From Ignisphaera sp. (GTDB taxonomy: Archaea > Thermoproteota > Thermoprotei_A > Sulfolobales > Ignisphaeraceae): a stretch of 64,000 nt of DNA. Location of the stretch: assembly GCA_038831005.1 (NCBI GenBank), contig JAWBKZ010000002.1, positions 186,001 through 250,000 of the forward strand, in the 5' to 3' direction. The notes below the pieces were generated by a model that worked only from the letters and a program-made list of their open reading frames with translations, ran no database searches and was not told the DNA's origin. The translations under genes were made by a program, and so were the position numbers. Positions 1,178 through 32,509 of the stretch are shown piece after piece. How positions within the stretch are numbered: position 1 is the first letter of the stretch; each line of letters starts with the position of its first letter.

Positions 1178-4100
1178 CTAGTTGATGTATTGTGGCATGG
1201 TTTGTGCTACTAGATGTATTGTGTATAAAAGTTTTGATTTAGCTTCAAGATATCTTTTGATATATGATGCAATATTTTGAGGAATATTCTTTATATTTTC
1301 ACCTCTTTCTTTAATGAAATCCATATAGATCTTCTGAAGCTTAGCTACATCTATACTCTCTAGGTCTATCTCCATACCCTCGATCACCAGCTCTGAAGCT
1401 ACTGTAGTAAGTGATACGGGATTGATCCCTATCTTCAGTAATTCTTCTCTTAAGCTATATCCATAATCATTAATAGTTCTAGCCAATCTCTTTAGACCTA
1501 TAGCTTCAAGTTCTTTAACTGCTACATCTTTATCATAGACTATTAGCTTCATATCGTTATACATAACTAGATCCTCAACTTCTACCTCAAAATCTCTAAG
1601 AGATTTGGGAGGTGGTGTGAAAGGATACATTACGTAGAGATCTACAACAGTTTTAGTGGATTCTCCATCATATACACTAAGACCTACTATAGCTCTACGT
1701 ATAGCTTCATCTTCATCGATTATCTGACCAATACCGTCGAGAGTAACGATCTTGAGAGCTCTACTAGGCTTAGGTATGATTATCTTTTTGTTCCTGAATA
1801 TAGCTGCAACTCTTTCCCTTAGCAGTATATAGTCTATAATCCTGATAGCTATATCCCTAACGGTATTAAGATCTATACCTATGGATAGAAGATCAGCATA
1901 AGCTATATCATCTAACTGTAACAACAGGATCAGATCTATATCCTCTGGACTATATGTCTCTATATCTTTTCGAATTCTGCTCCAATCTAGGCTATCTATA
2001 AGTCCTGCAGCTTCAGGTTCATGTATTTCAAAGAACTTCTTTTCTCCTATTTTGCCAACGCTATACATAATGGTTTCGAGAGGTATTCCGTATAATTTCC
2101 TAAGCAGAACCATTAGATAGGCGAGACCTAGTCTAAGTAGCGTTGAATCTTCTCTTTCATCAACCTCAATGAGAAATCCATAGGTATAGTCTTGGTATAG
2201 ACCAACTGTTTCAACAGGAACATATACAGTTTTTCTATCGTATGAAACGACATGTTTATCACCGATTCTCGATATCCTCGGTTTACTTGAAATGAGGTAC
2301 CATATCACTCTGTTTGGAACCTTTCTGTATTCGCCGAAACCTTGTTTAGGTGTATAGACAACAGCAAGAACATAGCTATACAACTTACCTCTCGCTATAT
2401 CTTTAAGTATGTTTGTTTCTTCTCTCCACAAAGATTTTATGTATCTATACTCCTCTAGTGCTTCAGCAATAGCATCATCGCTATAGAAACTGAATCTACT
2501 GAGTTTAGTCTCTACAACGGCTCTAGCAATTCTATGGCTTTTACCACTCTCGACATGCTTAACTATAGCGTCTTGCGAAATATCTATACAGCCTTTCTGA
2601 AAACGTTCAACAAGATCGCAATGACCTATAGGCTCGAGAGGTATAAGTCTTCCATCTTCCTCCATATATCTCTTGATACCATACGGAGGACCAAATTCAT
2701 AGAAGTTGAGTCTTTCCCATATCCATTTAGCTTTATCCACATCTATAGATCCGTTACCTTTAACCACTTTTACAGCTTTTAGGACTCTGTGTTCTTCTTC
2801 AGTAATTTTTTCTCTATACCATGGAGAGAGAACCTTTGCTAAACCTGTAAACAAATGTATATACTTATTATTGGGATTTATTATAGTTTTTTCTAGTTGT
2901 AATTGGAGCCATCGTTCAAATGCATTCATACCTTTTGAAAGTAGCTCCCAATCCCAACGCGTCGATGGTATGATTAACGATTCCGAGAAGGGTATACCTT
3001 TTCTTCTACCTTTCCTGCCCTCTCTTTGCAGAAATTCTCTAACACTTTCAGGTAACCCGATATGTACTATTCTAACAACAGTACCTATATCTATTCCTTG
3101 GCTTAATGTTCTAGGACTCACAATAATCTTTATTTCATCTCTTCTAGCTTTCTCTTCAATGATTTCTCGATCCTTTTTAGGAATTAAGTGATGATGAGCT
3201 GCTACAACATCTCCTATAGATTCTCTCAAATTTCTGGTAATTTCATCAGCACGTGCAATACTTTTAGTAAAGACAAGCGTAACACCATCATCATTTACAT
3301 AATTTGATAGCACTTCTTTTAGATCTATAGATATTGAAGGTGTTTCATAACCTAATGCTTCAAGATACTGAAGAACTCTATATACATTCTTTCTAAATAT
3401 CTCGAAATCATTGAGAGCCTCAATGATATCTTTATCTACATCACTTCTCTTTACAACATCGCTGCTATATCTTTTGATACTATTCCAAATATTTTCAAGA
3501 TTTTTTCCCAAGATTATGTAGAGTCTATTCTCGACTCTAAATGGCTTGCCATCAACTATAACACATTTTCTGTTTGTTACATCTTCTAGATATCTACATA
3601 TATCTTCAGGATTTGCTAGAGTTGCTGTCAGGATTACTATTTGTGGTTTTTCATCGCTATACTTCGTTAAGATCTTTATCATAGCTAGTATTAATGCTAT
3701 ACTTCTTGGGCTATAGAAATCAAATTCATCGATAACAAATAGATTTAGTTTCCTTAAATCGAGTACACATTCTGTAGGGGTTATGAGGAGTTTCTTAATT
3801 TCGTGGAAAAGAAATGCAGGATTCGTTATTACAAGGTTTGCAGATGCAAGTGTTTTCCTAAGCCCATACTTACCTATTTTCTGTATAATTTCGTCTCTTT
3901 GTAGAGCATCTATTTTCGTAACAGATATACCTGCTGAAGAAGAGTATAGTGATATTCTTTTGATCTGATCGTTCGCTAGTGCTAGTGTTGGATATACAGC
4001 TATAGCCTTAAACGTTCCGTTCTTTGCTTTTTCGTGGAAATAGAGGTACCAGCTTTCAGTCTTACCTGAACCAGTACCAGCCTTAAGGATAACATTGTAT

Positions 4101-4309
4101 CCTTCTCGAAGAAGATTTAGTGTCATTAGTTGATGTTCGTAGAGATATTCTTGAGCTAGCTCTATGCCGATAGTCTCTAGCTCGGGAACTATATCTATAA
4201 ATTTAACGTTTGTTCTAGTGGGTTGTAGAGGTGATTCAACATTCTTTACATAATCGTAACCAAGATTCTTCAAAAAGTATTCGCTATCTGTTATCTTCAC
4301 CAAGAACAC
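1178..4309 (-). CDS. Large superfamily 2 DEAD/DEAH-type helicase (about 1043 aa)
   Basis: An ATP-dependent SF2 helicase. Motif I (AGTGSGKTES, about residues 77-86), motif II DEFD (194-197), motif III TAT (228-230), motif V (SQGIDIGT) and motif VI (QREGRKGRRKG) are all present in order, so both RecA-like lobes look functional. The remaining 550 residues match no domain I can name, which sets it apart from Hel308 and XPB. The overall plan recalls archaeal YprA/MrfA-like repair helicases, but I do not see their Cys cluster. The likely start is GTG at 4309, with in-frame TTG and GTG codons a few residues further in. The 3' neighbour of the Lrp-type regulator gene, on the same strand. Confidence 0.88.
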   Translation of the reverse strand: MFLVKITDSEYFLKNLGYDYVKNVESPLQPTRTNVKFIDIVPELETIGIELAQEYLYEHQLMTLNLLREGYNVILKAGTGSGKTESWYLYFHEKAKNGTFKAIAVYPTLALANDQIKRISLYSSSAGISVTKIDALQRDEIIQKIGKYGLRKTLASANLVITNPAFLFHEIKKLLITPTECVLDLRKLNLFVIDEFDFYSPRSIALILAMIKILTKYSDEKPQIVILTATLANPEDICRYLEDVTNRKCVIVDGKPFRVENRLYIILGKNLENIWNSIKRYSSDVVKRSDVDKDIIEALNDFEIFRKNVYRVLQYLEALGYETPSISIDLKEVLSNYVNDDGVTLVFTKSIARADEITRNLRESIGDVVAAHHHLIPKKDREIIEEKARRDEIKIIVSPRTLSQGIDIGTVVRIVHIGLPESVREFLQREGRKGRRKGIPFSESLIIPSTRWDWELLSKGMNAFERWLQLQLEKTIINPNNKYIHLFTGLAKVLSPWYREKITEEEHRVLKAVKVVKGNGSIDVDKAKWIWERLNFYEFGPPYGIKRYMEEDGRLIPLEPIGHCDLVERFQKGCIDISQDAIVKHVESGKSHRIARAVVETKLSRFSFYSDDAIAEALEEYRYIKSLWREETNILKDIARGKLYSYVLAVVYTPKQGFGEYRKVPNRVIWYLISSKPRISRIGDKHVVSYDRKTVYVPVETVGLYQDYTYGFLIEVDEREDSTLLRLGLAYLMVLLRKLYGIPLETIMYSVGKIGEKKFFEIHEPEAAGLIDSLDWSRIRKDIETYSPEDIDLILLLQLDDIAYADLLSIGIDLNTVRDIAIRIIDYILLRERVAAIFRNKKIIIPKPSRALKIVTLDGIGQIIDEDEAIRRAIVGLSVYDGESTKTVVDLYVMYPFTPPPKSLRDFEVEVEDLVMYNDMKLIVYDKDVAVKELEAIGLKRLARTINDYGYSLREELLKIGINPVSLTTVASELVIEGMEIDLESIDVAKLQKIYMDFIKERGENIKNIPQNIASYIKRYLEAKSKLLYTIHLVAQTMPQYIN

Positions 4310-4377
4310 CGAGTGTATTATCTTCAGAGAGGATTCGTGACATCATCTTTCAGAGCCCACCACAATCATCATGAAGT

Positions 4378-4836
4378 CTATATTGTGGCTACATGTATAT
4401 CATCTTTAACGGCCTTAAATATCACACTAGTTACACTACCCTTTATGTGCGGATTCTTAAGAATCCTCTTAATAAATCTATCCAGATCTTCAACATCTTT
4501 AAACAAAGCCATAATAGCTATATCATATTCTCCAGTTATATCGTAAACACCTCTAACATTACCCTCAATAGATATATTCCTTTCAATATCCTCTATATGA
4601 GCTCCATCAACATTAAGCAGTATTAGAGCCATTAAGCTATAGCCTAGCTTCTTATAGTCTACAACAGCAGTACATTTCTTAATGAGCCCCAGTTTCTTCA
4701 ACTTTTGGATCTTCTTAGATACAATGGTTGGTGATTTACCTACTCTACGAGATATCTTGCGAACACTTAAGCTACAATCTTCTATAAGTATCTTTAGTAT
4801 CTCTTTATCGACATCATCAAGTGTCTCTGTAGACAC
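4378..4836 (-). CDS. Lrp/AsnC-family transcriptional regulator
   Basis: An N-terminal helix-turn-helix (about residues 8-55 of the 152-aa form) begins with DKEILKIL and is followed by a RAM/ACT-type effector domain with the family's pattern of a GEYDIAIMA strand and a C-terminal VTSVIFKAVKDD segment. Such proteins bind amino acids or related ligands and regulate transcription as oligomers. I chose GTG at 4836 because AGGTG lies 6 nt before it; an in-frame GTG at 4845 would add three residues. It lies upstream of the helicase gene on the same strand; nothing in the sequence shows the target. Confidence 0.9.
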   Translation of the reverse strand: MSTETLDDVDKEILKILIEDCSLSVRKISRRVGKSPTIVSKKIQKLKKLGLIKKCTAVVDYKKLGYSLMALILLNVDGAHIEDIERNISIEGNVRGVYDITGEYDIAIMALFKDVEDLDRFIKRILKNPHIKGSVTSVIFKAVKDDIHVATI

Positions 4837-6742: not shown

Positions 6743-8504
6743 TGAGTCTATCCCTATGTTCTATGAGTTTAATCATTTTAATAATAGATTTTAGCCATGT
6801 CTCTCTATCAATTATATCTCTACTAAAACGAAGAGTCTCATAACCTTTAACTATGTCTTTTAATAGATCTTTGTATTCCTTATCTGAGTTACCTAATTTA
6901 TGTAGTATCTTGCTATATATTTCTCTATGTGTCTCATTGTTACTTATCTTTACATCGAAAACATGAGCAATACTATATATAAGGTTCCAAAATAGATCGA
7001 AATGTGATTGACTATGTACGTTTCTTTCAATATTGTCAATAGAAGTATTACTTATAGATAGTAATCTTAATATATACCTTAGAAGATGTTTTCTTCCGAC
7101 TATCACTAAGATAGTTACTGCTATACCTGTAGAAAATGTTATATAGATAGTCAATGGTATAGTATAGAGTAGAGGGTTAGATACATCTCTACCTATTTCC
7201 ACAATATTATCTTGCTCTATAGAGCTCTGTATTGATGTGGCATCAGTATCTATTGACACAACTATATCGATATTGATACTATTAACCTTTTCAATATATT
7301 TGCTGAGCTTTTTCTCAACATTCTCTATATAGTCTGGTATTTTTGTATCGATATCAGTAAAGAACTTTAAGTTGATGTCGGTACTGTTTGAGAGATCGCT
7401 AAATAATGTGGCATTCTCTTTGCTATACATATCAATAAGATTAAATGGTATGCCAATGTATGTTAAGTTATTTACAAAGTTTTCACTATCTGAATAGTTA
7501 ACATATGTAGGTGTATACACGATTTCGATAGGCATATCTCTTAATCTTTCACTAAACTCTATGCTATCTAGTAAAGCTATTATCTTGTCTGAATCTATAC
7601 TCATAACATAGCTAATTATCTTAGGAATATCTTCAGTAGATATGGTTATTCCCTTCTCTTTGAGACTTGAAGCCAAAGCTATAGCTTTACTAAGTATATA
7701 TTCAACATCTTGAATAGTTAGAGGTTTACGAACCTCATTTTTGTTAGTCTCAATTAGTATTTGTTCTACTGATGAGTATGGATTTCGTTCAATTATATTG
7801 ATGTTCGATTTAGACAAGAAATCTTCTAGGAATAGGTATACAACAATAGATTCTTCGTATAATAGTTTGTCCATGATGTTCTCTAGAGTGTCTCTATATA
7901 TTCCTCTGCCTTGGAGGGCCATCTTTATTGTGTAAATCTTGCTTATGATCGAGAATAAGTATTCTTGTGATACATTCTCCCCTAAAAGAACTAGATACTC
8001 AATCAATGTATCTAGATCGCTATAGCGATACCTACAATGGCTATCTCCATAGAGTATATTCAGCAAGAGATTAGCAAAGGGATTTCCACATGTTCTACCA
8101 CTACTTATCGATATGTTGAAGTTAGCTGTGATAGTCAGTATAAGGTTTAAGATATCTCTATCGTCTATATTGCTTGATCCATAAGCAAATCTCTTTAGAG
8201 TCCTAAGCTGAAGAGCTCCAATGAAAATCGATAATGAGGGTTCTGTATATATATGGTTAAATATGTGTATGGCATTGTTCTTTAAATCTCTATAACTATG
8301 CACCTTGATATCACGGTATCGCGAAATATTTACAGAATTAAGCCATCTAAATAGTACTTCGAATGAATATAGATCTTTTGTAGCTACTTCAGAAATAGTT
8401 TCTGAATGTCTAGTGGTATCTAGGGCATATGCTATAGAGTATGTTGAACAAATAGATGTTAAGACAATTATTATGAGGATGATTGCCTTAGCACGAATAT
8501 GCAC
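6735..8504 (-). CDS. Secreted/anchored protein with DUF4129-like cytoplasmic tail (589 aa)
   Basis: A signal peptide or anchor occupies about residues 5-27, followed by a long extracellular helical region, one membrane helix near residues 445-470, and a cytoplasmic domain. That tail contains a THREIYSKI segment resembling the T-P-R-E core of DUF4129, a domain usually found beside MoxR and DUF58 proteins. No transglutaminase triad is visible in the outer part, so the usual catalytic domain is missing or replaced. The start is GTG, 55 bp from the divergent moxR start, so both genes share a promoter region. Confidence 0.68.
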   Translation of the reverse strand: MHIRAKAIILIIIVLTSICSTYSIAYALDTTRHSETISEVATKDLYSFEVLFRWLNSVNISRYRDIKVHSYRDLKNNAIHIFNHIYTEPSLSIFIGALQLRTLKRFAYGSSNIDDRDILNLILTITANFNISISSGRTCGNPFANLLLNILYGDSHCRYRYSDLDTLIEYLVLLGENVSQEYLFSIISKIYTIKMALQGRGIYRDTLENIMDKLLYEESIVVYLFLEDFLSKSNINIIERNPYSSVEQILIETNKNEVRKPLTIQDVEYILSKAIALASSLKEKGITISTEDIPKIISYVMSIDSDKIIALLDSIEFSERLRDMPIEIVYTPTYVNYSDSENFVNNLTYIGIPFNLIDMYSKENATLFSDLSNSTDINLKFFTDIDTKIPDYIENVEKKLSKYIEKVNSINIDIVVSIDTDATSIQSSIEQDNIVEIGRDVSNPLLYTIPLTIYITFSTGIAVTILVIVGRKHLLRYILRLLSISNTSIDNIERNVHSQSHFDLFWNLIYSIAHVFDVKISNNETHREIYSKILHKLGNSDKEYKDLLKDIVKGYETLRFSRDIIDRETWLKSIIKMIKLIEHRDRLNV

Positions 8505-8559
8505 GTTTATTCACATCAGCTTATATACGTTTAACAAAGTTAATAATTTGTTGTAAAAA
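8505..8559. promoter_or_regulatory. Divergent promoter region of the MoxR module
   Basis: Only 55 bp separate the GTG of the membrane operon from the moxR ATG. GCTTATATAC (8519-8528) is nearly symmetrical and can be read as a TATA-like box in both directions; AT-rich stretches beside it could also serve. The arrangement implies coordinated transcription of the two halves of the module. Box assignments are by eye. Confidence 0.45.
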
Positions 8560-9504
8560 ATGACGATATTTAGTAAGATTATCAAAAATGTTGTTGAAGA
8601 ATCTGCTAAAGTACTTGTTGCAAGAGAAAAACATGTGACAATGATTGTTTTCTCGGTTATAGCTGAAGGTCATGTACTTATAGAGGGTGTACCCGGGATA
8701 GCTAAAACACTAACAGCTAAGGTTGTAGCAAAACTACTTAATCTGAAGTTCTCAAGAGTTCAATGCACTATAGATACCCTTCCATCTGATATAATCGGTA
8801 GCAAAGTATATAATCAGAAGATAGGTGATTTCGAGACAAAAATCGGGCCTATATTTACTAACATTCTTCTTGTTGATGAGATAAATAGAGCTTCTCCAAG
8901 GACTCAGAGTGCTTTACTTGAAGCTATGCAGGAAAGACAGGTTACAATAGATGGTGAAACTATAGCTCTACCTAGACCCTTTGTTGTATTAGCTACACAG
9001 AACCCTATAGAACATGAAGGTACATTTCCATTGCCAGAAGCTCAACTAGATCGATTCTATATAAAACTGACTATGGGTCTGCTTGATAGAGTTGCCTTGA
9101 TGAACCTACTTAAAAGAGATTTGAAAATCATTGAGAAAGAGTATTGGTATCTAAAACCTGTAGCAGATGTTAACGATATAATTAATGCATCTAAAGAGAT
9201 AGAGAAAGTCTATGTAGATAGCTCTATATTCGAGTATATCGCGAATATATTCGAGTATAGTCATAGACATGAAGCAGTTCAATTAGGAATAACACCTAGA
9301 GGAGCTCTAATGCTTCTTCAGCTAGCTAAAGAGTTTGCTTTAGCTGATGAACGAGATTATGTAATACCAGACGATGTAAAGAATGCTGCTGTACCTGCAC
9401 TTGCGCATAGATTTCTAATAAAACCAGAATTTTTAGCAGAAGGATATACTGGTGAAAGGATTGTTCAAGAGATTCTAGCAAATGTTGAAGTTCCCCGACC
9501 TTAA
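8560..9504 (+). CDS. MoxR-family AAA+ ATPase
   Basis: A 314-aa AAA+ chaperone-like ATPase. Walker A is GVPGIAKT (residues 43-50), Walker B LLVDEINRA (103-111), followed by the MoxR hallmarks ALLEAMQERQVTIDG and VLATQNPIEHEGTFPLPEAQLDRF. MoxR proteins act in maturation or activation of partner complexes, typically with VWA or DUF58 proteins. Here the DUF58 gene begins inside or just after the stop codon, and the membrane partners are divergent. Confidence 0.95.
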   Translation: MTIFSKIIKNVVEESAKVLVAREKHVTMIVFSVIAEGHVLIEGVPGIAKTLTAKVVAKLLNLKFSRVQCTIDTLPSDIIGSKVYNQKIGDFETKIGPIFTNILLVDEINRASPRTQSALLEAMQERQVTIDGETIALPRPFVVLATQNPIEHEGTFPLPEAQLDRFYIKLTMGLLDRVALMNLLKRDLKIIEKEYWYLKPVADVNDIINASKEIEKVYVDSSIFEYIANIFEYSHRHEAVQLGITPRGALMLLQLAKEFALADERDYVIPDDVKNAAVPALAHRFLIKPEFLAEGYTGERIVQEILANVEVPRP

Positions 9505-9514
9505 GGGTATATGG

Positions 9515-10807
9515 ATGCTGAAGCATAGGATAGATAGAATAGTCATTGGCAAAGGCTTTTATATACTGGTAGTATCTACTCTACTTACATATATGGTTGT
9601 TGATGGAGTAGGTTTAGGATATCCTATTGGGAACACTCTTTTGCTTTACCTACTAATTACAGACACATTCTTTGTAATAACATCTATAGCGTTACTGCAA
9701 AATCTAAATAGAATTGATATAGAGGTAGAGCAAAAAGATGTATTGACATCTGTTGAGGGTATGGAATTAGGTATGAAGATTATTTTTAGTCATAGTAGAA
9801 TATTCAGATTTATTGTTATCAACAACATTGAAATAAAGAGCGATAGAGGTTTATGGATTAGTAGATGGAGAATCAATGATGAAGGATACATAGATCTATA
9901 TGTAACTGGTTATCCAGGTATGCACAAAGTTTATGGCTATAGAATAGAGGTTTCAACACCATTATCTATACATAGAGCGGAACTCAATATAGACTTCGAT
10001 ATAGCTAAAGAAATACGTTTTGCTCCTACAAAACATGTACCTAGATTCAATATCGAGCTAGTTTTACCGTATCTACAGATATTTGAAGGCAGATCTTCGA
10101 AAAGAAAAGGGGTAGGAGCTGAGGTGATGAGTATAAGAGAGTTTACGTCTGGTGATGATCATAGAAGAATTCATTGGAAGGCTACAGCTAGAGTAGGTAA
10201 ACTCATGGTTAAAGAATATGAACATAAGGTATATAGAAACGCACTAGTAATAGTGTCTATACATAAAGACTTCTTTGTCGGTGAACCAGCTCCACTTCTA
10301 TATCTGGTAAAGCTTGTGATAGATGTTGTTGAAAGTCTTTTGTCCAAGGGAATGAACATAGTATTGGGTGTCATAACGGAGAGAAACATCAAGATGTCTA
10401 CAGTTATTGATAGATCTAGACTTTATGAAGTCTACAGAATTCTGTCGGAAATAGAGTGGCTTATAGATATTGATAGGTATAGTAGTAGTAATAGGTTACT
10501 TAGATGGTTTACACAAACAGTTGCAAGAGATGTCTGTAGAGAACCCTGTATAGTGTTTTTAGTGGTAGATCCTCTAGATAGTATGGATATAGACAGTATT
10601 GCGAATATATATAGAACGCTTAATCAACAAAAACATAAAGTTAAAGTACTTCTCACAACACCACTAGCTATAAGGTTTATGTATACAGCTAGAGTTGAAA
10701 TTGCTGATGTAGATATGCTCCAGAAGGAAGCCACAAGGTTGAAGAATATCATCCATACTCTTAAGGTAGGTGATGTGTATCTTCCAACAGCATATCTAAA
10801 GTTCTAG
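9515..10807 (+). CDS. DUF58 family protein (MoxR partner)
   Basis: Two N-terminal membrane helices (about residues 10-55) are followed by a soluble region carrying the DUF58 core REFTSGDDHRRIHWKATAR with the KEYE segment after it, and a VWA-like C-terminal half. DUF58 proteins are encoded beside MoxR across archaea and bacteria and are thought to be its clients. The ATG at 9515 gives a natural basic start before the first helix; an upstream in-frame ATG at 9482 overlaps moxR by 23 bp and adds 11 residues, so the start is not settled. Confidence 0.9.
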   Translation: MLKHRIDRIVIGKGFYILVVSTLLTYMVVDGVGLGYPIGNTLLLYLLITDTFFVITSIALLQNLNRIDIEVEQKDVLTSVEGMELGMKIIFSHSRIFRFIVINNIEIKSDRGLWISRWRINDEGYIDLYVTGYPGMHKVYGYRIEVSTPLSIHRAELNIDFDIAKEIRFAPTKHVPRFNIELVLPYLQIFEGRSSKRKGVGAEVMSIREFTSGDDHRRIHWKATARVGKLMVKEYEHKVYRNALVIVSIHKDFFVGEPAPLLYLVKLVIDVVESLLSKGMNIVLGVITERNIKMSTVIDRSRLYEVYRILSEIEWLIDIDRYSSSNRLLRWFTQTVARDVCREPCIVFLVVDPLDSMDIDSIANIYRTLNQQKHKVKVLLTTPLAIRFMYTARVEIADVDMLQKEATRLKNIIHTLKVGDVYLPTAYLKF

Positions 10808-10869
10808 CAAACTCTACATCAGAGATATCGAGATCGTGTAGTAAACATATGGATTAATGCATTGATTTC

Positions 10870-11574
10870 TCAAATCTTATTAATACGAGTCAATATAGAC
10901 ATCATGGTTCTAGCATTTTCCAGCATCCAGTGATCATTATTGAAAAACACGTATATTTTCTTAGGGTTCAATTCTACAATTCTTCTAGCTATATCTTCGA
11001 GTTCTTCATAGCTGTATTCATAAGCATACCATGTGTAACTTCCATGCAGTCTCATATAGACTATATTGTTGGAAGATACAATCCATCTACCAATAGGCGA
11101 ATCTATTGAAACTATTGTTGCATTAAATTTCTTGAGCTGGTCAATAACGTTGAACCAACTGTTATGCCTAAACTCAATAGCGAGTCTTTCACCAAGTGCA
11201 ACAATTTTTGCAAACTGCTTTAGTTTCTCAATATTTTCATCAGATGCAACAAAATTAGGGGGCATTTGAAATAAATAGAAGTCTATATACATATCAAGAG
11301 GGGTGAATAACTCATAGAATTTCCTCCATATGTCTATAGCTTTATAGCTAAGTTTTCTGTAATGAGTTATACCTCTAAACACCTTAACAGCCCATCTGAT
11401 ACCGTAGATCGATGTTTTCTTAGCCCAACTCGATACTTGATTACGGAAAGGGAATCGATAAAAAGAGGCATTAAGTTCAATAGCATTAAGTCTAGAGTTC
11501 TGTAAATACCAATTGAGAGTTCCATCGATATTCCAATCATATAGCCATCCAGAAGTACCTATAAATATCTCCAT
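10870..11574 (-). CDS. DUF72 family protein (234 aa)
   Basis: A TIM-barrel-like DUF72 protein of unknown biochemical role. The N-terminus IFIGTSGWLYDWN and the segments ELNASFYRFP, LAIEFRHNSW and YVFFNNDH are typical of the family and cover its whole length. I start it at the ATG at 11574 because DUF72 proteins begin directly with this GTSGW strand; the frame is open upstream to a TTG at 11634 but those residues look non-conserved. No clear operon partner. Confidence 0.9.
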   Translation of the reverse strand: MEIFIGTSGWLYDWNIDGTLNWYLQNSRLNAIELNASFYRFPFRNQVSSWAKKTSIYGIRWAVKVFRGITHYRKLSYKAIDIWRKFYELFTPLDMYIDFYLFQMPPNFVASDENIEKLKQFAKIVALGERLAIEFRHNSWFNVIDQLKKFNATIVSIDSPIGRWIVSSNNIVYMRLHGSYTWYAYEYSYEELEDIARRIVELNPKKIYVFFNNDHWMLENARTMMSILTRINKI

Positions 11575-11689
11575 AGATCTACATCCAAAAATTCTAGATC
11601 TAGAGATGGAATTAAAGTTTAGCTTTTGTTCCAATTTTGTTTAAGTGTTTTATGTAGATTGAAATAGTCATCATATTGGCTCTAGATTC

Positions 11690-27173: not shown

Positions 27174-27506
27174 TTATCCACCTCTAGAGATCCTTAACTT
27201 ATTTGTTTTGTCTATAGGTATCAAAGCTATAGCATGTACATCTAATCTAGGTGAAGACACGGGAAACACAAGAGCCTTCCCTTCTTCATACGACAGTATA
27301 ACTCTATCAACATCGCTGTAATCCTTTAGCTCTACATATGTAGCATCTTCACATAATCTAGAGAAAATACTTCTTAGAGAACTTTCAGCAACAATATTTC
27401 TACAACCATTAGCGAAAGCAGCTATCCTCTTCAAAATGTTCTCGACATCTCTTCCATAGATTATGTATGCTCGATACCTAGGTATACCACTATCGTTTAA
27501 CACCAT
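27174..27506 (-). CDS. Hypothetical protein (110 aa)
   Basis: Not recognised. A compact protein with regular strands and helices (YRAYIIYGRDVENILKRI, ILSYEEGKALVFPV), two Cys (residues 35 and 50) and a basic C-terminus ending SRGG. First gene of a two-gene unit with the 133-aa protein, 2-3 bp spacing, so the two probably act together. Confidence 0.58.
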   Translation of the reverse strand: MVLNDSGIPRYRAYIIYGRDVENILKRIAAFANGCRNIVAESSLRSIFSRLCEDATYVELKDYSDVDRVILSYEEGKALVFPVSSPRLDVHAIALIPIDKTNKLRISRGG

Positions 27507-28277
27507 AAACTTTACCGCTAAATAACTTTATAGAGGAGCTTATATCTTAATGAGCTACAAAGTATTATTGAAACTTTAGAAAAGTTAAGCCATATATAGG
27601 TATACCTGATTGGGTAATCCTTTATGTACGCTATTGCGTAATAGTTTATACTGTGTTTCTGGCCATAGTAATAGATTTTGTGATTTCTTTATCAACTTTG
27701 GCCGTAGATTCTTTTACTCTATAGATTATCCTAGATTCTCCGGAGATGATATTGCAGTAGTATTCATGTCCATAAAGGATTATGACCTTAAATACTGACA
27801 ACTAACATAGTTACTTAGTTCTAAGCAAAAAGTAGTCTCAAATGAAGCATAGTCTATGTTCTCTACATCACATCTCATACATTAATAAGTATTCATAATG
27901 TTTAAAACTAGCCATAGACTTTATTCATAGACATAATAACAGAGTGATTCGATCTAGCTTTCGAGATTTTGTACCAAATTTTAGACCAAATCCATTACTT
28001 CTTCAGTCTTTACTCTAATTGTAGAGACTAGATATAGAGATAGATGTATATAATTTATTTCTAACTCTTATAAAAATAAATTTCACAAAACTGCACCTAT
28101 CTTTAATAAGTATGTATATAAAGAAAACCTAGTTTAATTATTAATGCAAGAGAAACACATATATTTTGCAAGCCACAGGAAAAGATAGTATCCAGATAAC
28201 ATAGGTGCTCGAAATGATATCGGTTAAAAAGCAAAGAATCACTAATCAATTAGCTAGATACCCTGCCGATATCTATA
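27507..28277. other. Gene-free region
   Basis: About 770 bp of AT-rich DNA. A 62-codon plus-strand frame near 27610 starts with TTG, has no ribosome binding site and an unconvincing composition, so I do not call it. No RNA-like GC island, no long repeat. Confidence 0.45.
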
Positions 28278-28358
28278 TCAATTGCTGGTGTTGGTGCAGC
28301 CTAAAACTAATACTATCTCAATAGGAGAAACTCTAAAGGGTAGAGCTAAAAGTTTCAT
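28278..28358 (-). CDS. Candidate 26-aa peptide gene, possible RiPP precursor
   Basis: Its ATG overlaps the permease stop as ATGA, and GGTGA lies 7 nt before it inside the permease gene, a good archaeal Shine-Dalgarno spacing. The product has a Lys start, a largely hydrophobic stretch, and a hydrophilic tail GCTNTSN in which four of seven residues are Cys, Thr or Ser. Such residues are the substrates of YcaO cyclodehydratases, and a YcaO gene lies divergently beyond the ABC operon. The gene could instead be a chance frame after the permease; coupling and SD favour translation. Confidence 0.5.
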   Translation of the reverse strand: MKLLALPFRVSPIEIVLVLGCTNTSN

Positions 28359-29470
28359 ACTTTCTTCACCAACGGATAGATCAAGACAGATACTGTAAGT
28401 AGGATAACTGCAAACACCACTTGGTATACTAGTGACATTATGTTTATCTCTAGGTAGAGCACATAGTTTCTTGCTGTAAATAATGTATGGAATGATGGTA
28501 GAATACGTGCAAACCACTTAAGCATTTCTGGAAACAGCTCGTAGGATGCAAAATATCCCGAAGTAAATGCCAGAAACAGAAAGACTGGTACACCCATACT
28601 ACTTGCAGCAACTATTTCTTTCGATGTAGTGCTTTTGTAGAGAACTATAGAGTACAAAATCAATGCTAAAGCAAATGCAATAACATAATTAATTATATAC
28701 GTAAACCAGAACACATGAGTCATGGCGAAACTTAGTGAAGTTCTAAGGAACATTCGGGATACGAGGAACAATACCAGAGTAGATTCCAACATGTATAAGA
28801 GTACAGCTACAAAAACTATGAATATTGCTGTAAACTTGCTGGTGGGGGATATATACATCCTTTTATCGAGACCCGTAAGAGTGAACATCGCTAGTAGCGA
28901 AATAGTTATAGTTATGCTCGATAATGGGATCACTAAAGCTATCTGTAGCGTCATGATTTCTCGACTACTTATATCTGAAGCCACTATCTCGGTACTGATA
29001 TTGAAGTTACGGAAGAGTAACATATGTGGTAATCCTATGTACGTATTGTTTAGCAGAAAACCGAAAAGAGCTTCACGTAGAACTCCAGATAAATAATTTG
29101 CATAGAGACTCGATGTAGAGTATATATGGATATTCTTGTTACTTTCAAAATCTTTCGGTATATAGATATAGGCTACGTGATCTAGAGAGCGCAAACTCTT
29201 CTCTACGACGTAGGTTCGCGGATTATCTACAATGTTTTCGACTACCAGGGTCTTAATGCCTGTGTTATTGAGTTTTGACTCGATATGGTTAACGATAGTG
29301 GTATCTCCTGATATATATACAGTTACAGATGGTTGTTGGTCTGCTAAGGATCCAAACAATATTAAGAGTATAATGGGAAAGACTATCTCCCAGAATAAAG
29401 CGATTTTAGATCTGTTAAATATCTTTAGAATAGAGTATACTTGGTAAAAGATACTTCTAATAACATTCAT
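28355..29470 (-). CDS. ABC-2 type transporter permease (371 aa)
   Basis: One N-terminal helix (about residues 22-41) with the FWEIVFPIILLILFGS pattern of ABC-2 permeases, an external domain of about 120 residues, then five clustered helices and the FASYELFPEMLKWFARILPSFH segment before the last ones. This is the topology of exporters for peptides, lipids or drugs. Its ATG overlaps the ATPase stop (4 bp), and a 26-aa peptide frame overlaps its own stop. Confidence 0.9.
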   Translation of the reverse strand: MNVIRSIFYQVYSILKIFNRSKIALFWEIVFPIILLILFGSLADQQPSVTVYISGDTTIVNHIESKLNNTGIKTLVVENIVDNPRTYVVEKSLRSLDHVAYIYIPKDFESNKNIHIYSTSSLYANYLSGVLREALFGFLLNNTYIGLPHMLLFRNFNISTEIVASDISSREIMTLQIALVIPLSSITITISLLAMFTLTGLDKRMYISPTSKFTAIFIVFVAVLLYMLESTLVLFLVSRMFLRTSLSFAMTHVFWFTYIINYVIAFALALILYSIVLYKSTTSKEIVAASSMGVPVFLFLAFTSGYFASYELFPEMLKWFARILPSFHTLFTARNYVLYLEINIMSLVYQVVFAVILLTVSVLIYPLVKKV

Positions 29471-30375
29471 ACATGATTAACCTCTTTAACAATGTTTTCA
29501 AAAGCTTTAGCAAGCGTTGGAGGTTCAACAACTATACTCACTATATTATTTGCATAGGTATTTAATTTCATAAGTAGCGATATCGCATCCAATATGTTAT
29601 CTAACTCTACTACAACTTCACCTCCCTTGACATTCACCATATCGATTTCTACTGGTTTCCTGAACCTCACCATTACGGTCCATTTCCCTCCATATATAGA
29701 AGCAATATCGTATGGATCACCATATGCAACAATCTTGCCCTTAACGATCATAGCTATTTTTGTAGAATATCTAGCCGCTATCTCCATAACATGCGTCGAA
29801 TATATAACTGTTATATCGTTCTTATTGAGGAGCTTGACTATATCCATAAGCTCTACTCTTGCAACAGGATCTAGATTAGCTTCAGGTTCATCTAGTATAA
29901 TCACCCTTGGTTCTGTAACTAATGATGCCGCTATTTCGACTCTCTTCCTTTGACCTGCTGATAAACTACCATACAGTTTGCTATAGTATTCCCGCATACC
30001 AACAAAATCCAGCAACTTCTTTAAATCCTCATCTCTCAGCTTTATTCCCCATAACGAGGCAACATACTTTAGGTTTTCCTCAACTGTTAGTCCCTCAATC
30101 AGCCTAGAGTTCTCGACAACAACACCAATACTTTTCGCTATATCTTGAGGTAATCTCTTCTTAACTTCTCTACCAAACCATACTATTTTACCGCTGTTAA
30201 TTTTTCTCAAGCCTAGGACAGACTCTATGAATGTTGTTTTACCAGCACCATTAGGTCCAATAAGACAAAACATTTCGTTGTATGCAACCCTAACAGTAAC
30301 TTTGTCTAAGGCTACCATATCTCCATACTTTTTAACTATCTCTAGAGCCTCTAACACATAGTTACCATTACTCAT
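29467..30375 (-). CDS. ABC transporter ATPase (302 aa)
   Basis: A single ABC domain: Walker A GPNGAGKTT, signature LSAGQRKRVEIA, Walker B VIILDEPEANLDP and switch His in YSTHVMEIAARY. A regulatory C-terminal tail of about 90 residues follows. A strong SD (GGGAGG) lies before the ATG. It forms an exporter with the next gene. Upstream, divergent, are a tnpB remnant and the YcaO gene. Confidence 0.93.
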   Translation of the reverse strand: MSNGNYVLEALEIVKKYGDMVALDKVTVRVAYNEMFCLIGPNGAGKTTFIESVLGLRKINSGKIVWFGREVKKRLPQDIAKSIGVVVENSRLIEGLTVEENLKYVASLWGIKLRDEDLKKLLDFVGMREYYSKLYGSLSAGQRKRVEIAASLVTEPRVIILDEPEANLDPVARVELMDIVKLLNKNDITVIYSTHVMEIAARYSTKIAMIVKGKIVAYGDPYDIASIYGGKWTVMVRFRKPVEIDMVNVKGGEVVVELDNILDAISLLMKLNTYANNIVSIVVEPPTLAKAFENIVKEVNHV

Positions 30376-30507
30376 ATCCTCCCACCACCAAGATTGAGGC
30401 CGATAGCTCGCAATTCTCTAGTAGTAAAATTTTGCACCTTATATGTTTATCAAATTCTGCAACCATGGCCGAGTGTAACAATGCTACAGTACATGCTAAA
30501 TAGGGGT

Positions 30508-30957
30508 TCAGCTCTGATGTAGGTTTATATTAGTTGATTTCATTGCCTCATCTCTTTTCCCCTGCATTCCGCTCGGGTTTTCATCGGGCTCAGGGGCGTT
30601 CAAGGGCACCCCACAACCCCCACATCTTGAGTATCTTAGAAGTAAGTTGATGCATGCGATTACGTCTCTATCTCCTGTGAATCCACATCTAGTGCATCTC
30701 AGTACTCTATCACCTTTATCCTTTAACCTGCTTCCACATCTGAGGCATGTTGATGATGTCTTCATTGGGTTAATGTAGCTAACCTCTAGTCTTTTCTCGA
30801 GAGCTTCATATACTATGGTGAACTGTATTCTTCTGTAGAACCACAGGGATAGCTTCTTATTGAATGAGCTACTTCTATTCACGTTATTCCTGAGTTTGTC
30901 TAGGTTTTCAAAACTTAGAGAATAGACGATAAACTCGTTAGAGGCGAGGTATAGTGT
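30508..30957 (-). pseudogene. tnpB: TnpB (IS200/IS605-type) C-terminal remnant
   Basis: The N-terminal two thirds are missing. What remains covers the region from about FENLDKLRNN through SLWFYRRIQ, the zinc ribbon (TCLRCG and RCTRCG) and the last RuvC motif GDRDVIACINL with its Asp. The first two RuvC acidic residues are lost, so it cannot cut DNA. The frame runs uninterrupted from an upstream stop that lies inside the start of the YcaO gene to the TGA at 30508. No transposase tnpA is present. IS element decay is therefore old enough to have lost half the gene but not to have broken the rest. Confidence 0.85.
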
Positions 30958-32309
30958 TCAAAGAAATCGATGAGTATATGGATCTCCTCAAAGTCTCGGA
31001 ATTATTTGGTGACTATCATATATTCAAGAGCCCGAGAATTATTGTTCCTTCATCTACGGATCTACCTATGTATGTAGCAAATACTGAGGAGCTTAACATA
31101 GAAGAATTAGTACATACTATAGTAGGAGAATTTAAATTTATCTCTCATAGTGGTAAAGGCACAACCCCCAATAAAGCGCTTGGTTCTGGATTAGGGGAAG
31201 CTGTTGAGAGAACAATACCTATAATTAAGAGACCCAGAGCTGAAGTTTACGGTGCTTACAGAGATTTGAAGAGCAATGCATTAGGTCCTCAGCAACTTCC
31301 ACTCTTTGCTCTAGAGCAATATGAGTCTATTCCATTTAATCAATTTACTGAGCAAACCTATATTGGTTGGGTTAGAATGCATGATATCATCAATAGTGAA
31401 CAAATTTTAGCTCCCGGCCAAATAATGGCGTTTGGATACATACCTGTAGCTACTGAGAAGCTTATAGGGTACTCTTCATCTGACGGATTAACTGTTCATA
31501 CAGATATAGATAAGGCAATCTACAAAGGAGCTATAGAGTTTATAGAAAGAGATGCTGTAAATTTAGGATGGCACAGTGATATTCCTCCATACAAGGTAGA
31601 GCTAGACCTCAAAGAAGCTCTAGATATTCTAGGTCTCGATACTAAAATACCATACAACGATATAAAACTTGATGTATTCTTATGGAGATCAGACACAGAC
31701 TTATATGTCGTCTCTACACATGTTATAGATGAGCGTAGAAAATTCTACACCTATTTTCCAGGCGAAGGTGCTGGTACAACTTTTGTTGAAGCCTTATCGA
31801 AAGCTCTAGCTGAAAGTTGTCAAGCGTATTTTCATTCATATGCAATACATCGTTACCGTAGAGATTTTGGTGAAGATGCTGACTACTATTACGTAGACGA
31901 AAATAGTTCGCCAGAGGAGGCTGATAATCTATTCAGAATAGTTTTCTACTATGGGTATCCGAGCAATCTCCAAAAACTATATAGAGAATTCTTTTCAAGA
32001 TCTCCGAGATACGATTTGAAGAATTTTGAAAGAAATGAAGAGATTACGAGGTTTTCGCATAGATACTCGATACTCAGAACTATAGCTAAGGAGAAAAGGT
32101 TATCGCTGTTGCAATTAAATCAAACACCAGAAGAACTTGAGCATCTAAACATAGTTAGAGTATTTATACCAGAACTAACTCAATACAATGCTCCTAGGTA
32201 TCCCTACTTTGGTCAATTCAGATACTATCTAGCTAGAAGAATACTTAAAATAGATGATATAACTCTAAACTATAAAGATCTCAGGAAAACTCCAATTCCA
32301 TATCCGTAG
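30954..32309 (+). CDS. YcaO-family protein with C-terminal PxPxP (putative cyclodehydratase)
   Basis: A 451-aa YcaO enzyme. YcaO proteins use ATP to activate a peptide backbone amide, giving azolines, thioamides or amidines. Conserved features seen: SGKGTTPNKALGSGLGEAVER (residues 66-86, with the ATP/Mg-binding Glu in E-x-x-E), and the second acidic motif AIEFIERDAV (Glu195, Glu198). The protein ends exactly in PIPYP, the PxPxP tail known to be needed in azoline-forming YcaOs and absent from the thioamide (TfuA-partnered) ones. No TfuA, E1-like or dehydrogenase gene is adjacent. Start is GTG, with GATAAACT about 23 nt before, inside the tnpB remnant. Confidence 0.9.
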   Translation: MFKEIDEYMDLLKVSELFGDYHIFKSPRIIVPSSTDLPMYVANTEELNIEELVHTIVGEFKFISHSGKGTTPNKALGSGLGEAVERTIPIIKRPRAEVYGAYRDLKSNALGPQQLPLFALEQYESIPFNQFTEQTYIGWVRMHDIINSEQILAPGQIMAFGYIPVATEKLIGYSSSDGLTVHTDIDKAIYKGAIEFIERDAVNLGWHSDIPPYKVELDLKEALDILGLDTKIPYNDIKLDVFLWRSDTDLYVVSTHVIDERRKFYTYFPGEGAGTTFVEALSKALAESCQAYFHSYAIHRYRRDFGEDADYYYVDENSSPEEADNLFRIVFYYGYPSNLQKLYREFFSRSPRYDLKNFERNEEITRFSHRYSILRTIAKEKRLSLLQLNQTPEELEHLNIVRVFIPELTQYNAPRYPYFGQFRYYLARRILKIDDITLNYKDLRKTPIPYP

Positions 32310-32377
32310 AGCAGGGATACGCTAATGGAGATCAGCAAAAAGATCAAAAATTTTCTACGAATAGTAGATACAGGTTT

Positions 32378-32509
32378 AGGAGAATTTATCTAAATTACTC
32401 AAGAGAATTATATTTACCACTACAACTTTCAGGGTGTTGGTGCTCTTGGTGTGGATTCCATTATATATATATCAATAACTTTCCTATGATAATTGAGGTT
32501 ACAGCTTAG
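32378..32509 (+). pseudogene. Cys/Trp-rich decayed frame (radical-SAM-like or precursor relic)
   Basis: About 70 bases after the YcaO stop an open frame encodes LPLQLSGCWCSWCGF (codons from about 32414 to 32458). It has no ATG, GTG or TTG upstream, and in-frame stops follow from 32507. The motif C-x-C-x-x-C would become the radical-SAM C-x3-C-x2-C by adding two residues, so a decayed radical SAM gene is one reading. The other is a lost or frameshifted Cys-rich YcaO substrate; an ATG in another frame at 32325 would need a shift. Neither is proved. I see nothing else in 32510-32854. Confidence 0.3.

Follow-up and report, generated by a model that had tools for sequence, protein, structure and literature searches.

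The locus analysed here raises the question of whether a YcaO enzyme and a neighbouring ATP-binding cassette (ABC) exporter in an archaeon still form a working peptide pathway, and which short frame would serve as its substrate. The window, that is the whole stretch of 64,000 nucleotides under analysis, covers positions 186,001 to 250,000 of contig JAWBKZ010000002.1 of Ignisphaera sp. (GCA_038831005.1). A sequence-only reading had proposed the locus as a candidate stand-alone pathway of an azoline-bearing ribosomally synthesised and post-translationally modified peptide (RiPP), with a 26-aa peptide of the exporter operon as the possible substrate. The present analysis indicated, with a probability of about 85%, that the locus is left over from an archaeal cluster, laterally distributed, for linear azol(in)e-containing peptides (LAP), also termed thiazole/oxazole-modified microcins (TOMM). 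The cluster has been rearranged and partly deleted, and its product formation is probably abolished or very weak.

Close relatives of the cluster were found in only two other Thermoproteota genomes. L016 (contig 84 of G183, also L025) belongs to a Desulfurococcales metagenome-assembled genome (MAG) and L024 to a Thermoproteota MAG, G461 apparently being the same sequence. When the contigs of the genomes were scanned, a single-protein query found no relative and a two-row alignment query found L024. The genes of L016 lie on one strand in the order Cys-rich precursor, CAAX-type protease, 200-aa protein, SagB, ATPase, permease, partner and YcaO. Its candidate precursor is a small Cys-rich frame (MQVRRVSVSRADLKRVPADIVIACCACCCWCHCHAYSMLPVQFSNSEE, L016 2272-2418). 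The CAAX-type membrane protein is Rce1-like (E 0.0017, slightly below the cut-off), and the SagB dehydrogenase scored 109 bits with TIGR03605, above the cut-off of 78. The E1-like partner has 261 aa, the partners of the two relatives ranging over 230-261 aa, and it matched the TOMM leader-binding models TIGR03882 and TIGR03603 weakly. Its predicted structure, with a predicted local distance difference test score (pLDDT) of 62, brought LynD, TruD and the E. coli McbBCD synthetase into the top eight PDB matches, with E as low as 1.5e-10 but a large root-mean-square deviation. The order permease-partner-YcaO is the same in L024.

The 26-aa frame (28278..28358, minus strand) carries every feature that had been described for it: the start overlaps the permease stop as ATGA, GGTGA stands 7 nt upstream and the tail reads GCTNTSN. 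In both relatives the start of the partner gene overlaps the permease stop in the same way, as ATGA, and the partner N-terminus follows the pattern (x)RVSPxEI...LG. The N-terminal alignment placed MKLLALPFRVSPIEIVLVLG of the window against MRLRGIPIRVSPKEIIVAIG of L016 and MRV----VRVSPTEILLLLG of L024. Among 2,270 six-frame stop-to-stop segments of the window, the 26-aa frame scored highest against the N-termini of both partners (56 and 45), values that 0/20,000 and 1/20,000 of its shuffles reached. It is identical to the L016 partner at 10 of 20 positions. The similarity ends at G20, foreign residues (CTNTSN) follow, and the tail GCTNTSN lies antisense to NCWCWCS, which forms the core of a plus-strand frame of 36 aa. 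Because the permease-ATGA junction is the same and the match to both partner N-termini is the best, the 26-aa frame is, by homology, the truncated 5' end (~20 codons) of the gene for an E1-like partner (C protein) and not a precursor.

The earlier view of this frame as the precursor of an exported azoline peptide drew on a position, a ribosome-binding site and an ATGA coupling that are all real. The same frame and junction, though, form the N-terminus of the far longer partner in both relatives, and the tail is antisense to the core of another frame; that view has next to no probability left, since homology already refutes it except in the case of a later re-use of the truncated frame. Conservation of the frame, proposed as its test, was indeed found in the relatives, but as the partner N-terminus. 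No other E1-like partner was found in the genome; the sole TIGR03882 hit is a MoeB/ThiF-type E1. A stand-alone type had been concluded from the lack of a partner and a dehydrogenase, and neither is intact in the window, but the relatives have the partner and L016 has SagB as well. A YcaO without C protein as the native, bottromycin-like state is contradicted by L016 and L024, where YcaO directly follows the partner gene, and by the remnant of that gene here.

A candidate precursor gene, overlooked earlier, overlaps the tail of the partner stub on the opposite strand (28214..28324, plus strand; 36 aa, MISVKKQRITNQLARYPADIYINCWCWCSLKLILSQ; GGTG 6 nt before the ATG). This frame was the best of the 2,270 window segments for the L016 precursor, with LARYPADIYI-NCWCWC aligned to LKRVPADIVIACCACCCWC, and the two share the pattern LxRxPADIxIxC.... 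Since antisense DNA of the partner gene codes for everything that follows CWCWCS, the native tail of the candidate has probably been lost or replaced. RNA folding upstream of the candidate gave nothing. A second precursor 3' of YcaO (32276-32506, core GCWCSWC) was considered and rejected; no start codon precedes the core, and part of it resembles opposite-strand DNA of a TnpB zinc ribbon. A core similar to that of the window was also seen in a Pseudomonadales MAG (L026 5170-5364), where a frame ending GGCNCWCWCCCSSIQIGEITRGE directly follows a YcaO gene split in two frames, and the ThiF-like and SagB-like genes that follow mark a bacterial LAP cluster.

The precursor and YcaO of L016 share a strand and stand at opposite ends of the cluster. 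The candidate precursor and YcaO of the window are also on one strand. The segment with ABC, permease and partner stub that separates them is inverted, and its stub end meets the precursor core. A single inversion that broke the DNA behind the precursor core and behind about codon 20 of the partner gene would flip this segment and would give the present arrangement of precursor, ABC genes and YcaO directly. The orientation of the 36-aa frame is the one that such an inversion predicts. The junction would lie at approximately 28296..28302, where the similarity changes from the partner to the CWC core of the precursor.

The inverted segment holds an ABC-2 type permease (28355..29470, minus strand), 25% identical to that of L016, and an ABC exporter ATPase (29467..30375, minus strand). 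This ATPase shares 40% identity with its counterpart in the L016 cluster, and the next best among the other ABC ATPases of the window reached 36% over a shorter match. Both genes had been correctly placed beside YcaO, and the ABC operon and YcaO co-occur in the relatives, which carry ABC, permease, partner and YcaO in one operon. The proposed azoline RiPP locus with an exporter is thereby borne out for the ancestral state; the present locus is probably non-producing. A truncated TnpB of which the C-terminal zinc-ribbon part is left (30511..30957, minus strand) occupies the space between YcaO and the ABC operon and directly borders the start of YcaO. It had gone unnoticed, and a second degenerate copy (74% identity) lies on contig 3 of the genome. 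The remainder of the partner gene, the SagB dehydrogenase, the 200-aa gene and the protease would have been lost next to this fragment; no remnants of them were found within the window.

The intact form would work in the following manner. The E1-like partner would dock the leader of the Cys-rich precursor, YcaO would use ATP to convert core cysteines to thiazolines and the SagB flavoenzyme would oxidise these. The CAAX-type membrane protease would probably trim the product or protect the cell, and the ABC pair would export the product. Ten genomes of the same genus lack the cluster; all of them have kept the neighbouring gene at 27174-27506, and most have kept the malic-enzyme-like gene. The absence from ten congeners with mostly kept flanks, together with relatives in two other Thermoproteota genomes, suggests lateral acquisition and later decay. 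A second decayed archaeal YcaO cluster was observed at L018 9646-10155 (G130), where YcaO is cut to 169 aa beside a transposase-like gene.

The YcaO gene of the window (30954..32309, plus strand) encodes 451 aa in an intact frame with a GTG start and a PIPYP end, so that the coordinates, acidic motifs and terminus given for it earlier were all found. The protein scored 149.7 bits with Pfam PF02624 (profile positions 1-324 of 325) and is the only YcaO copy in the genome. Its nucleotide-binding motifs Sx3ExxER (S78-R86), ExxERD (195-200) and ExxQ (287-290) are all present and are kept in the relatives. The best NCBIfam model was TIGR03604 (SagD) with 178 bits over positions 1-377 of 377, below the curated cut-off of 219. 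The thioamidation model TIGR03266 gave 63 bits, against 490 and 499 bits for two true thioamidation-type YcaOs of the same phylum and 285 bits for a third, more distant one. TfuA was not found in the genome search. The identity over the full length was 48% to L016 and 52% to L024, and in a tree of 13 YcaOs the three formed one group with support 100/99. The YcaOs of L016 and L024 end in SVPYP and PVPYP. P-x-P-like ends occur in all azoline-type members of the set except L014 (PHLLP) and not in the thioamide-type YcaOs, which is in accordance with the association of the PxPxP end with azoline-forming YcaOs in the literature (PMC12338566). On account of the SagD model, the low TIGR03266 score, the lack of TfuA, the tree grouping and the PxPxP end, the enzyme is by sequence an azoline-type (SagD-like) cyclodehydratase (D protein) and not a thioamide-type one, as had been proposed. 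YcaO relatives were not found in viral contigs and phages, and plasmids gave less than 28% identity. The AlphaFold model of the window YcaO from four sequences was poor (pLDDT 42) and was not used.

Several observations weigh against a decayed remnant. The permease-partner junction is backed by two close relatives only. Cys/Trp composition contributes to the precursor match of the 36-aa frame, its leader alone ranks second in the window, and one of 6,080 control segments from congeners, a plain Cys run, outscores it. YcaO, ATPase and permease all have intact frames, and the changes unique to the window YcaO fall mostly at the third codon position (0.21/0.16/0.55 at positions 1, 2 and 3), like those of its relatives. 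A SagB-family flavoenzyme is encoded elsewhere in the genome, away from any YcaO (L019, contig 5:163115-163669, G000); it is anchored by a membrane segment at its N-terminus, and the short stretch examined showed neither a partner nor a YcaO gene beside it. The intact frames and the codon bias may reflect either a recent break or a function still in place, such as export or self-protection through the ABC pair. The codon record shows no more than these two options because most of it predates the break.

A minimal system that still functions, in which YcaO modifies the CWCWC peptide without a partner or with a partner/SagB encoded in trans, and the peptide leaves the cell through the ABC pair, would draw on these same intact frames, the precursor frame included, on the normal conservation of YcaO and on L019. 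Stand-alone D proteins are also present in the bottromycin and trifolitoxin clusters (Cox et al., PMC4603692). Such a system is nonetheless unlikely, as the YcaO of the relatives has its partner immediately upstream and this genome yielded none, the precursor tail is apparently replaced, and the partner of known systems boosts the cyclodehydration activity by orders of magnitude (PMC4603692). By analogy with this boost, little or no product is most likely in the present state. It is a little more doubtful still that the rearranged locus is active through YcaO acting without partner on a chimeric precursor (CWCWCS plus antisense tail) re-cut by the inversion; if true, this would be a minimal partner-free azoline peptide system in a hyperthermophile, with evolution caught in progress. 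An artefact of assembly or strain mixture at the junction, with the living strain carrying an intact cluster, is very unlikely. The genome is a draft of 9 contigs and the rearrangement is seen in one genome only, but the inversion, the loss of four genes, the TnpB remnant and the missing rest of the partner gene are independent changes that would all have to be false on a 331-kb contig, and the L016-type SagB, protease and 200-aa gene were not found in the window nor the partner in the genome. That YcaO has outlasted its own cluster with an intact frame could also point to a role in another ATP-dependent backbone modification such as protein thioamidation. This is highly improbable in view of its firm grouping with azoline-cluster YcaOs, its low thioamidation-model score, its PxPxP end and the lack of TfuA.

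The remnant reading corrects a tempting one, in which a coupled short frame is taken as a RiPP precursor. The features described earlier were all present, and the azoline-type YcaO and the ancestral exporter link stand; the 26-aa substrate and the stand-alone type do not. The locus appears as a LAP cluster caught in the middle of decay with its steps still legible. It also reveals a small group of archaeal LAP clusters (the window, L016 and L024) with Cys/Trp-rich precursors, of which L016 is a complete, expressible example. This group is apparently a further archaeal LAP subgroup, undescribed in the literature searched, and such clusters probably serve some hot-spring archaea for making small ring-modified peptides and exporting them. 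L024 also holds dispersed repeats of ~34 nt (TAAATTTACCAGAGACTAAA) at 3001-4568, ~440-580 nt apart, mostly intergenic and some on the other strand; they are not a regular array of clustered regularly interspaced short palindromic repeats (CRISPR).

The comparison with known systems places the group within LAP/TOMM biosynthesis. L016 has the same parts list as the known LAP/TOMM clusters (SagA precursor, SagB dehydrogenase, SagC partner, SagD YcaO, CAAX protease and ABC exporter). The match of the window YcaO to the SagD model runs over the full length but stays under the cut-off, the window lacks the B protein, an intact C protein and the protease, and the L016 partner is weak against the SagC models. 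A SagC-SagD-SagB-like operon was also observed in Sulfolobaceae-like L014/L017 (G120; L014 ~7940-11580), with 144 bits for TIGR03603, 225 for TIGR03604 and 139 for TIGR03605. A small frame with the core SSSSSCCSSG adjoins it and a second small Cys-rich frame (MKLRIIKLSQSKLTPPIINGCCTTTCINGCCCSCSLTCCGG) lies nearby (L014 16012-16140); both are candidate LAP precursors in an archaeon.

Thermoacidophisin is found in Sulfolobus and some bacteria, and haloazolisin in halophiles (Cox et al. 2015, PMC4603692). Thermoacidophisin clusters, probably represented by L013 and L015, are likewise crenarchaeal, with discrete C and D proteins, a B protein, ABC transporters and a regulator. The window YcaO, however, is 24-25% identical to the Sulfolobaceae YcaOs and falls in a separate, fully supported clade, the partner protein is a different one, and the candidate precursor has a CWCWC core instead of a Gly/Tyr-rich one. 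Short frames beside Sulfolobaceae YcaO operons (L013 7576-7698, L015 10214-10363 and L018 15050-15172; cores GCWIGCW, GCWFGCW and ACWVGCWFSCW) are candidate precursors of the thermoacidophisin-like group. Haloazolisin clusters are also archaeal and TOMM-type (PMC4603692, PMC9953058), but have fused divergent cyclodehydratases and Ser-rich cores, whereas the window group has discrete C and D proteins and a Cys/Trp core. The YcaO/TfuA pair that thioamidates a glycine of McrA shares the YcaO superfamily and differs in the three features already given, the TIGR03266 score, the C-terminal end and TfuA. The window group is neither thermoacidophisin nor haloazolisin, and it does not amount to a new kind of system.

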